A model generated the notes under the pieces. It saw nothing but the letters and a program-made list of their open reading frames with translations, was not told the DNA's origin and ran no database searches. Below, piece by piece: positions 42,963 to 55,762 of a stretch of 64,000 bases of DNA. The translations under genes and the position numbers were made by a program. The stretch's first letter is position 1; every line of letters begins with the position of its first letter. The stretch comes from Pirellulales bacterium. Its GTDB lineage: Bacteria; Planctomycetota; Planctomycetia; Pirellulales; JAEUIK01. The DNA is taken from contig JAHBXR010000026.1 in the NCBI GenBank assembly GCA_019636335.1, forward strand, positions 1 through 64,000, in the 5' to 3' direction.

Positions 42963-43667
42963 TCACGACTGGCAGGCGGGGCATCCCCCTCCCAGCCACA
43001 AGCCGTCGAGGTGGACGAATCCCAGGCCGCGTGCGACGGCGACGATGCCCGTGAGCACCACGCACCATGCCGCGATGTGCAACAGATGTTGGCGGGTGGC
43101 CAGGCTGATGAACGAGCCTCCGATGCCGGTCAGGACCATCAGCGGCACGGTGCCCAGGCCAAAAGCAGCCATGGTGGCCAGACCGGCTGCCATGCCGCCA
43201 GAACTGCTGGCTAGTGCCAAGTAGGCATAGACGAGCCCACACGGCAGCAGACCGGTAAAGAGCCCCGCGAGAAAGACGTGGGTCGGTTCGGGCGAGCGCA
43301 GAAAGGTTGCGAGCAGCGAACCGCTCAGGCAGGGTGGCGCACTAGCGGGGGTGACTCGTCGCGGCCAGACCCCCGCGGCGACCAGTCCCTGCCAGATGAG
43401 CAGCACGCCCGCCACGACCGCCAGACAGGCGGGAACGTTGACCCATTCTGCGGCGCGATCAGCCAGCCGCATGCCGCCGTAGCCTGCCAGGGCGCCGGCA
43501 CAGGCGTAGCTGAAGATTCGACCGCTGCTGTAGATCGCCTGCCGCGACAGGTTGCGCGCGACGCTGGGGGCCGTGCCGCCGATGGACAAGGCGAACCCGC
43601 CACACATGCCGATGCAGTGGGACGAGCCGAGCAGCCCCCCCAAAAAAATAAGCGGCAGATCGAGCAA
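42963..43667 (-). CDS. SafE/TauE-like (DsbD-type) membrane protein of the cbb3 operon
   Basis: 234 aa. TTG 43667 is chosen because GAGAGGAAA lies upstream and the protein then starts directly at its first membrane helix (LLDLPLIFLGGLLGSSHC). ATGs further upstream would overlap ccoI by 40-80 bases. About six membrane helices. A conserved HCIGMCGGF in helix 1 and GLLPCGLVY mid-protein are typical of the cytochrome-biogenesis/SafE family found behind ccoI. In cbb3 operons this protein is thought to help copper delivery or oxidase maturation. Two cysteines near the C-terminus (GGGCPACQS) might bind metal. It lies 34 bases after the ccoI stop. Confidence 0.82.
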   Translation of the reverse strand: MLDLPLIFLGGLLGSSHCIGMCGGFALSIGGTAPSVARNLSRQAIYSSGRIFSYACAGALAGYGGMRLADRAAEWVNVPACLAVVAGVLLIWQGLVAAGVWPRRVTPASAPPCLSGSLLATFLRSPEPTHVFLAGLFTGLLPCGLVYAYLALASSSGGMAAGLATMAAFGLGTVPLMVLTGIGGSFISLATRQHLLHIAAWCVVLTGIVAVARGLGFVHLDGLWLGGGCPACQS

Positions 43668-43701
43668 CGGATGTTTCCTCTCGTAATCCCAGAGCGCGGC
43701 G

Positions 43702-45918
43702 TTACGCGCGGACGAGCTCTTCCCATTCCGCGGCGGGGGCATCTTGCTGCTCCATCTCGGCGACGTGCGCCAGAGGGACATCGCGTTGTGCCAGAAAGAG
43801 GGAATTGCCGATGACCATCATGCTGCTTCCCACCATGGCGACGGCGGCGAACACGGGATTCAGCCAGCCCGCGGCGGCGAGCCCCACGCCGACGACGTTG
43901 TAGACGAAGGCCCAGAGCAGATTGAAGCGGATGGTGCGCAGCGCGCGCCGCGAAAGCTCGATGGCCCAGGGGAGTCGCCGCAGATCATTGCTCAGCAGGC
44001 AGACCGAGGCCGACTGCCGCGAAAGATCCGTGCCGCAGGCCAGGGCCACCCCCACGTCGCTTGACTCGAGTGCCGGCGCATCGTTGATGCCGTCGCCGAT
44101 CATGGCCACCTGGCCAAGCGTCTGGCGCACTTCGCGCACGGCGTGGACTTTATCTTCGGGAAGTAACTCGGCACGCACGGCGAGTCCCAGTCGCTGGCCG
44201 ATTCGGTGGGCGTATGCCTGGTGATCGCCGGTGAGCATCACGAGCTCGCACCCCAGGGCGCGGCACGCCTCGATCGCGGCACGGGCCTCGGGACGCAATT
44301 GTTCGCGAAACTTGAAGACGCCGCGCACGACGCCCTCCCACCCCAGGCAGGAGATCGATTCGCCGCCGGCCAGGGCCCGCTCGATGGCTAGCCTTATTTC
44401 GCCCTGGGGGAGAAGTCCCTGCTCCTGCATGAGTCGCCAACTGCCGAGATAGATCGCCGGCGAGCGTTCCGCTTCTCCGAGTTGCGCCACCAATCCCCGG
44501 CCCGGTAGCGTGCGCACTTGCTGCACGGCGTCGCTGGCGCCTTTTCGCCGCACGTGGCCGCTGCTCTCGTCGACGAACAGTTCGATGGCGCGCGAGAACG
44601 AATGCAACGAGGCGGTGGCCATCGCCGCCGCGACCGACAGTATCTCGCGCTCGTCGCCGTCGCCGAGGAATCGCTCGACCTTGGGCTCGGCGATGGTCAG
44701 CGTGCCGGTCTTATCGAAGCAGATGGCCCGGACGGTTGCCAAGCGTTCGAGCGCCTCGCCGTGCCGGAAGAGGACCTGCGCCCTCGACGCTGTTCCCAGG
44801 GCTGCCCAGACGGCCAAAGGGGTGGCCAGGCCCAGGGCACAGGGACAGGCGATCAACAACACGCTGAGCCCCGTCATCAACCCTGTGTCGAAACCAGCGC
44901 GCGTGCCGTGATAGAACGCCGCCGCCAGCGAGATGAGCGACACCAAGGGCAAGAAGGCCTGAGCGATGCGGTCGGCCAGACGTTGATAGTGTCCTTTTTT
45001 CTCTCGGGCCGCGCGAACGAGGTCGATCAGCCGGCGCAATGAACCTTCGTTGGCGGCGCAGGTGGCACGCACGACGAGCTCGGCGTCGAGATTCAGCGTG
45101 CCCGCGTAGACTTCGTCGCCACTTTCTTTAATGGCCGGCCTGCTTTCGCCCGTGATCACCTGTTCGTCGATTGTGGCCGAGCCACGCACGATGACCCCGT
45201 CGAGGGGCACGCGCTCGCCCGGCAGCGCGCGCAACGTATCGCCCACGGCGACCAGTTGTCGCGGGACCCAACGTTCGGGGATGGTGTCGAGCCTGACCTG
45301 CTCGGGCAGCAGCTTCTCGAGCGCATCGAGCGCCGCGGTGGTGCGCAGCTTGCCCGTGGCCTCGAGCCAGCGACCGAGCGTGAGCATGACGAGCACCACG
45401 CAGCCGACTTCGAAATAGACGTGTGGATATCCGCGAAAGACGGCCAGTACCGAATAGACGTACGATGCCCCGATGCCCAGCACGAGGAGCAGATCGGTAG
45501 AAAAGACGCCGCGGCGCATTTGACTCCACGCATCGTGCCACAGCGTGCCCCCCAGCAGCCATAGCACCGGCAGCGACAGCAGCAGACAGGCATAGCGAAA
45601 CAACTCGATGAGCGAAGCGGTCCAGCGGTCGGTCTGGCCCAACTCCGCTTCATAGATTTCGTACGACCAGAGCGCCATGGTGAAGGCCATGACGTTCATC
45701 GTGAAGAAGATGGCAAGCCCCAGGCGAGCGAGCGCCCACCGGGCCGCCCCGGTCTCACCTCCTTCGCCGGCGATGGAGGCCGCGATGCGGCAGCCGACGC
45801 AACAATAGGCCGGCTCGGCCACGGTACCTTCGCTCGCATGTGTCGACGGCGGACGCCACCAACGGGACGCGAGAGGAAGTCCGCAGTAGTCGCAGCGATC
45901 GTCGGCGTGTGAAGTCAT
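43702..45918 (-). CDS. ccoI: Copper-exporting P1B ATPase CcoI/FixI
   Basis: 738 aa from the Met at 45918, overlapping the preceding small gene by four bases. The N-terminus carries a cysteine-rich region (CDYCGLP, then CCVGC), as in FixI, in place of a standard HMA domain. The P-type ATPase core shows ACPCALGLATP (Cu site), TGES, DKTGTLT and GDGINDAP. The HP dipeptide of the nucleotide domain reads LHSFSRAIE here, so a serine replaces proline, as in other CcoI proteins. CcoI supplies copper for assembly of the CuB centre of cbb3 oxidase. It follows the oxidase structural genes directly. Confidence 0.93.
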   Translation of the reverse strand: MTSHADDRCDYCGLPLASRWWRPPSTHASEGTVAEPAYCCVGCRIAASIAGEGGETGAARWALARLGLAIFFTMNVMAFTMALWSYEIYEAELGQTDRWTASLIELFRYACLLLSLPVLWLLGGTLWHDAWSQMRRGVFSTDLLLVLGIGASYVYSVLAVFRGYPHVYFEVGCVVLVMLTLGRWLEATGKLRTTAALDALEKLLPEQVRLDTIPERWVPRQLVAVGDTLRALPGERVPLDGVIVRGSATIDEQVITGESRPAIKESGDEVYAGTLNLDAELVVRATCAANEGSLRRLIDLVRAAREKKGHYQRLADRIAQAFLPLVSLISLAAAFYHGTRAGFDTGLMTGLSVLLIACPCALGLATPLAVWAALGTASRAQVLFRHGEALERLATVRAICFDKTGTLTIAEPKVERFLGDGDEREILSVAAAMATASLHSFSRAIELFVDESSGHVRRKGASDAVQQVRTLPGRGLVAQLGEAERSPAIYLGSWRLMQEQGLLPQGEIRLAIERALAGGESISCLGWEGVVRGVFKFREQLRPEARAAIEACRALGCELVMLTGDHQAYAHRIGQRLGLAVRAELLPEDKVHAVREVRQTLGQVAMIGDGINDAPALESSDVGVALACGTDLSRQSASVCLLSNDLRRLPWAIELSRRALRTIRFNLLWAFVYNVVGVGLAAAGWLNPVFAAVAMVGSSMMVIGNSLFLAQRDVPLAHVAEMEQQDAPAAEWEELVRA

Positions 45919-55314: not shown

Positions 55315-55327
55315 AGGATGCGTTTCC

Positions 55328-55762
55328 GTGAAAAGCATGATGAACACGTCCATGCTGGTGGCATTCGTTCTGGTAGCCGTCGTCGCGATGCTGGGACTGG
55401 TCTCGAGCGTGCGCTCGGCGCCGCCGCAGCGAGCGAAACCGAACGAGGTGGCCGACTTCATGCAGCTCAAGCTGCGGCATTCGCAAGAGGTTCTCGAAGG
55501 TCTGGCCGTCGAGGATTTCGACCAGATCGCCAAGAACGCACAAGACTTGAGCTTGTTGAGCCAGGCGGCAAGCTGGAACGTGCTGCAGACCGAAGAATAT
55601 CTGCAGCAGAGTGGCGAGTTCCGCCGCACGGCCGATGCGCTGACCAAGGCCGCCAAGGAAAAAAATCTCGACGCGGCCGCGATTCGTTATGTCGAATTGA
55701 CCATGAAGTGCGTCCACTGCCACAAGTACGTGCGTGGCGTTCGCATGGTCCGGCTGCCTTGA
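55328..55762 (+). CDS. Small exported mono-haem cytochrome (c'-like), paralogue
   Basis: 144 aa. GTG 55328 has AAAGGA nine bases upstream; an ATG lies three codons later. N-terminal signal/anchor (MLVAFVLVAVVAMLGLVSSV), then helices and a C-terminal CVHCHKYVRGV. It shares length, the LEGLAVEDFDQIAKNAQ-type block and the haem position with the cytochrome at 50383-50793, so the two are paralogues at either end of the two-component genes. Last gene of the forward low-oxygen set. Confidence 0.76.
   Translation: MKSMMNTSMLVAFVLVAVVAMLGLVSSVRSAPPQRAKPNEVADFMQLKLRHSQEVLEGLAVEDFDQIAKNAQDLSLLSQAASWNVLQTEEYLQQSGEFRRTADALTKAAKEKNLDAAAIRYVELTMKCVHCHKYVRGVRMVRLP

Follow-up and report, generated by a model that had tools for sequence, protein, structure and literature searches.

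A proposed low-oxygen response island of a Pirellulales bacterium, probably controlled by a haem-PAS/NarL-type two-component pair

Which regulator controls the cbb3-type oxidase and neighbouring stress genes of a planctomycete, given that the same genes lie beside another kind of regulator in related genomes? This question is raised by the window analysed here, a stretch of 64,000 nucleotides that forms the first part of the 77 kb contig C26 in a 6.38 Mb genome (99% complete) of a Pirellulales bacterium. In this study, the locus is read as a low-oxygen response island under a haem-PAS histidine kinase and a NarL-type response regulator, which probably replaced an NtrC system; we hold this explanation, taken jointly as a whole, with moderate confidence. 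A fall in oxygen would lead the kinase to autophosphorylate at His150 of its HisKA_3 domain (numbering from position 51418), the phosphate would pass to Asp73 of the regulator, and the regulator would bind palindromes at 51328 and 53198. The targets switched on would be the kinase and regulator genes, the divergent block of BON, cytochrome and cbb3 genes, and the operon for thiamine-binding protein, hemerythrin, universal stress protein (Usp), CBS protein and cytochrome c'. The pair would have taken the place of the NtrC regulator, usually accompanied by a protoglobin histidine kinase and sigma54 promoters, that is found beside the same cassette in relatives. We infer the direction of signalling, the limits of the operons and the replacement itself.

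The sensor combines a FixL-like input domain with a different catalytic core. FixL (1d06) was the best PDB match of the kinase PAS domain (phmmer E 6.8e-36), and His70, Arg76 and Arg90 align with H200, R206 and R220 of BjFixL, that is, the haem-ligand histidine and two pocket arginines are conserved; the domain is predicted to hold haem and bind oxygen. The core consists of HisKA_3 and HATPase_c (Pfam), and because of this HisKA_3 core the kinase falls short of the FixL equivalog model NF041777 (140 bits versus a cut-off of 850), with the match confined to the PAS part. An earlier note on this DNA had proposed a FixL-type haem pocket on a non-FixL core, and the alignments agree with it. The best named matches were from 'Planctomycetes bacterium CA13' and an uncultured Schlesneria. 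Of two possible translation starts, at 51295 and 51418, we judge the second more probable, because the conserved PAS region follows it immediately and the ~234 bp then left free would make a plausible promoter region for the divergent genes; no strong ribosome-binding site was seen at either start.

Cytochrome c' proteins bind nitric oxide (NO), and hemerythrins may serve NO or oxygen chemistry. Both proteins are compatible with a nitrosative or redox stress unit whose kinase senses NO, carbon monoxide or redox state instead of oxygen, and NO complexes were among the best fold matches of the c'-like model. This alternative appears quite improbable to us, given a kinase pocket that matches the oxygen-sensing FixL, including the arginine contacting bound oxygen; moreover, the same cassette is paired with a protoglobin kinase in relatives, and the Myxococcus counterpart is tied to hypoxia (PMC11841059).

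The regulator has a receiver and a GerE helix-turn-helix of the DosR/NarL type, with DevR/DosR as its closest solved structure, and regulators of this type occurred in 38 of the 147 genomes of the order. Two near-identical palindromes (CTCAGGGATTCCCCGAT and ATCGGGGATTCCCCGAT; operators 1 and 2) lie in the promoter regions of the island. The sequence TCRGGGATTCCCCGA has two sites without mismatch in the whole genome, both in these promoter regions, and one site with a single mismatch elsewhere, inside an open reading frame. The earlier proposal of a single local regulon thus gains support from a palindrome that is common to both promoter regions and unique in the genome, as judged from sequence. 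Within the window, TCRGGGAWTCCCYGA matched only the two palindrome sites, even at two mismatches; this count is weak alone, because 14 of 100 shuffles reached at least two matches with two mismatches allowed.

Related palindromes (ATGGYGGAWTCCRCCAT) were found around orthologous kinase and regulator genes, proteobacterial contigs included, with the common frame ATnGnGGAWTCCnCnAT. A de novo search for inverted repeats upstream of the relatives' kinase, BON, Hsp20 and Usp genes yielded a single perfect motif only after centring on GGAWTCC. At 12 of 33 orthologous loci, the ~500 bp upstream of the kinase contain a related 17-mer (at least 14/17 positions); among random stretches drawn from these loci, 5% do. 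Of the 147 genomes, 13 have the exact degenerate pattern, and the regulator is encoded in 10 of these (Fisher p 8e-5); we counted 11 of the 20 sites of the pattern at less than 10 kb from the regulator gene. Because related palindromes cluster around the orthologous genes, the palindrome is probably the operator of the NarL-type regulator; the independent evidence for this comes from the tests over the whole genome and across genomes. At locus L127, the same CGGGGATTCCCC variant is accompanied by VKTIET in the recognition helix, both as in the window, and at loci of the GGYGG form this helix mostly has HTID or HTIE; such a pairing of operator variant with recognition-helix residues is suggestive only.

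A 9-bp inverted repeat, GTGAGCCTC / GAGGCTCAC, encloses operator 1 (window 51320-51355), as would suit palindromes that act as RNA hairpins or are bound by a different protein. We give this explanation little credence, as the related palindromes cluster with the gene of this regulator across genomes and none (at least 15/17) was found at NtrC-linked loci. Separately, an inverted repeat AGTCTC-TAG-GAGACT was noticed at 53229-53243, just 3' of operator 2.

Whether the pair also reaches the oxidase block depends on operator 1. The reach of the pair may end with its own genes and the plus-strand stress operon, with the cbb3 block under another regulator (a paralogous NtrC, e.g. C27:33134, or a housekeeping promoter) and adjacent by history. 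Of the two operators, the first is the weaker and is nearer to the kinase than to BON; orthologous pairs elsewhere usually accompany BON, Hsp20 or Usp genes without cbb3, and CcoN lies within 20 kb of this regulator only in G000 and G077 among the 147 genomes. However, the sole good palindrome on the oxidase side is in the region that the two divergent blocks share, BON belongs to the conserved neighbourhood of the pair, with recurrent BON genes near its orthologues, and neither a sigma54 nor an FNR site was found in the oxidase-side promoter region. On balance, we consider restricted control unlikely, and prefer a regulon that includes the oxidase. Among other controllers considered, sigma54 was rejected for want of a site in the island promoters and an FNR/FixK box for want of a match in the window, and a sigma70 promoter scan gave a single weak match, at chance expectation.

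The control layer differs in the relatives. The oxidase block is kept in ~20 examined genomes, with CcoN 65-82% identical, and the module of Usp, CBS/hemerythrin and cytochrome c' genes is also conserved, either apart from the oxidase block or beside it. Most regulator-bearing module loci have an NtrC-type activator; NtrC lies less than 20 kb from CcoN in nine genomes, and its linkage extends across many families of the order. Six linked kinases consist of Protoglobin and HATPase_c, with HisKA detected in five of them, and in G014 and G028 a kinase with a FixL-like PAS and a HisKA-type core adjoins NtrC. Of 17 upstream regions of Usp genes, 9 contain a sigma54-type site (at least 9/10 positions; p 4e-11), as do 7 of 19 upstream regions of the di-haem cytochrome (p 1e-7). 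In this genome, by contrast, no protoglobin kinase matched at 1e-15, the best NtrC is 49% identical and its kinase matches in the core only; a globin-type kinase, NtrC and sigma54 promoters, the marks of an Nmp-type system, are all absent from the locus in the window. The survey of neighbourhoods used a simple open reading frame caller on genomes that are partly fragmentary, and the relatives are non-independent samples.

The Myxococcus NmpR consensus GCGCA-N5-TGCGC was not clearly present upstream of the relatives' operons, where GTGTGCG / AGTGTGC and TTGGCA were the enriched words and no fixed spacing emerged. Two copies of GTGCGACTT at window positions 51228 and 51263 resemble the TGTGCGA word enriched upstream of the relatives' NtrC/sigma54 operons and are possibly a relic of such control. 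A possible intermediate arrangement was observed in G077 (C230, 48897-65873), where a stretch of ~17 kb holds CcoN together with both an NtrC orthologue and a NarL regulator of the family described here.

Instead of a replacement, this lineage could have acquired the oxidase block and stress operon next to a HisKA_3/NarL pair already in place, or the other genomes could have come under NtrC control independently; the wide occurrence of this regulator type and the poor resolution of the Usp and CcoN trees accord with such histories. The window Usp nevertheless groups with that of the same-family genome G004 (support 83/84), and by distance also with G001 and G005, and the module adjoins NtrC in G004 and G005. 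Together with the linkage of NtrC across many families, this makes the absence of a replacement somewhat unlikely. Since the trees are weakly resolved and do not settle the direction of the swap, that direction rests on gene neighbourhoods.

Several further points weigh against control by the pair and against its having replaced NtrC. Identity of the regulator to its relatives is just ~40-52%. The tests of the motif followed its discovery by eye in two promoter regions, which makes that first sighting post hoc, and the related sequences compared are not phylogenetically independent. Operator 1 differs from the 17-mer at two positions and lies 145 bp from the BON start, so that governing the oxidase block is only a candidate role for this site. 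Many relatives have neither regulator beside the oxidase, and the same-family genome G001 lacks a protoglobin kinase or a close NtrC, yet has a sigma54-like site upstream of the oxidase. With these points included, we see about an even chance that the whole control layer of an orthologous cassette changed within one order: NtrC and sigma54, usually accompanied by a protoglobin kinase, would have given way to a haem-PAS HisKA_3 kinase and a NarL regulator, with a new operator in each of the two promoter regions. Haem oxygen sensors would therefore be modules that can be exchanged while the gene set stays the same. If this is true, the order offers a natural regulator-swap experiment in which the same targets are combined with two kinds each of haem sensor, activator and promoter, and the turnover of sensor and operators under an unchanged regulon output becomes testable. 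It would also provide a defined operator and target set for studies of oxygen control in planctomycetes.

The features of the island are listed in Table 1 in the order of their coordinates. All genes listed by the earlier note were found where it placed them, and two were added, namely, the BON-like gene between the c'-like cytochrome and the kinase, and that second c'-like cytochrome at the head of the oxidase genes. Read in its own direction, the minus strand runs from BON through the cytochromes to CcoN, CcoO, the P-type ATPase and the last membrane protein; on the plus strand, a gap of 241 bp separates the regulator from the thiamine-binding protein gene. CcoN and CcoO did not reach the trusted scores (177 bits versus 583 for TIGR00780; 100 versus 201 for TIGR00781). 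In sequence terms they are genuine but belong to a divergent cbb3 clade, as both homologues are present with the helix-VII Tyr and the CuB His pair (FFYPL-GIHH in 21/21 CcoN). In all 21 CcoN of the clade (that of the window and 20 relatives), Gln replaces the Glu of the canonical FEGP stretch, which we take to be the E323 equivalent. The last membrane protein of the block looked SafE/UreH-like by eye only. In the plus-strand operon, the Thiamine_BP, Hemerythrin, Usp and both CBS domains scored over the Pfam cut-offs. The final protein scored under its cut-off, but its predicted model (pLDDT 88.7) best resembled cytochrome c', with modest Foldseek E-values, and it has the four-helix bundle and C-terminal CxxCH of such proteins.

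Table 1. Genes and putative operators of the island (window coordinates)
Feature	Position	Strand	Evidence or context
Membrane protein, last of oxidase block	42963..43781	-	Position and sequence kept in ~20 relatives; no NCBIfam match
CcoI/FixI-type copper P-type ATPase	43702..45987	-	TIGR01525 9.7e-152, TIGR01511 2.4e-136
Small membrane protein between CcoO and CcoI	46134..46401	-	Kept within block in relatives
CcoO/FixO-like mono-haem subunit	46448..47161	-	TIGR00781 1.5e-28, under cut-off; 66-79% identity in relatives
CcoN/FixN-like catalytic subunit, divergent cbb3 clade	47133..48545	-	PDB cbb3 subunit I 3.5e-41; TIGR00780 under cut-off
Membrane protein of oxidase block	48536..49165	-	Kept within block in relatives; no Pfam match
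Di-haem cytochrome c, CcoP-like	49156..50328	-	Cytochrome_CBB3, two stretches, 1.5e-20
c'-like cytochrome, paralogue of 55328-55762	50383..50793	-	Alignment with other c'-like proteins, C-terminal CxxCH
BON-domain-like protein	50896..51183	-	PF04972 1.2e-4, under cut-off
Putative operator 1 CTCAGGGATTCCCCGAT	51328..51344	.	BON/oxidase - kinase divergent region
FixL-type haem-PAS histidine kinase, HisKA_3 core	51418..52449	+	Pfam, NCBIfam and PDB matches; alternative start 51295
NarL/LuxR-type response regulator	52439..53140	+	Response_reg 3.6e-23, GerE 1.9e-15; DevR 4.2e-25
Putative operator 2 ATCGGGGATTCCCCGAT	53198..53214	.	Upstream of thiamine-binding protein operon
Thiamine-binding protein, MTH1187-type	53382..53720	+	PF01910 1.6e-16
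Hemerythrin-like protein	53783..54241	+	PF01814 3.7e-8
Universal stress protein (Usp)	54306..54746	+	PF00582 5.9e-37; 69% to same-family relative G005
Twin-CBS-domain protein	54772..55314	+	PF00571 1.5e-23, two stretches
Cytochrome c'-like protein	55328..55762	+	PF01322 0.0014; model m158a6efb5318

The island shares features with several known systems. DosST-DosR of mycobacteria resembles it in the structure nearest to the regulator, in a HisKA_3-type core and in targets of the Usp/CBS type. DosS and DosT sense with GAF domains, whereas the sensor of the window is a PAS domain, which sets the island apart from a DosR regulon; DosST-DosR also has no cbb3 and a different box, the palindrome TCGGGGATTCCCCGA being unlike the DosR box. 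The earlier note considered the joining of 'FixL' and 'DosR' gene sets to be new, but precedents exist in Bradyrhizobium, Myxococcus and the Chromatiales contig L037. On the last (3674-15208), translations inspected by eye showed a FixL-like kinase with a HisKA-like core, a FixJ-like regulator, Usp, hemerythrin-like, Hsp20-like and cbb3 genes together.

In Bradyrhizobium, Usp and CBS proteins are induced in microoxia along with cbb3 subunits, with the neighbouring locus tags blr2761, blr2762 and blr2764 (PMC6515984). FixLJ-FixK2 thus shares with the window the FixL haem-PAS and a regulon overlap in cbb3 subunits, Usp and CBS, but it relies on a HisKA core, FixJ and then the CRP/FNR-type FixK2, whereas the window has HisKA_3, a NarL-type regulator and no FNR box (PMC6515984). 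A FixL-type sensor and a regulator not homologous to FixJ are already known as a pair from hFixL-FxkR of Rhizobium leguminosarum, which differs in its hybrid kinase, K-box operator and relay via FixK (PMC7888657). In Myxococcus xanthus, NmpR of the NmpRSTU system, which has a haem sensor kinase, controls a cbb3 operon with a P-type ATPase, and Usp, CBS and hemerythrin genes, as in the window (PMC11841059). With its NtrC regulator and sigma54 it is the same general system as that of the planctomycete relatives and the closest known counterpart of their arrangement; the window differs from it in having a PAS sensor, a NarL-type regulator and another palindrome instead of an NtrC-like regulator, sigma54 promoters and GCGCA-N5-TGCGC sites (PMC11841059). 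Targeted searches of the open-licence literature found no planctomycete account of such a system. The gene set is therefore already known, and what is new is the pairing of this sensor, regulator and operator with the cassette; the unusual aspects here are the class of regulator and the apparent replacement of the relatives' system. Overall, the island appears to be a conserved low-oxygen cassette with a controller that varies by lineage and is of an uncommon kind in the window.

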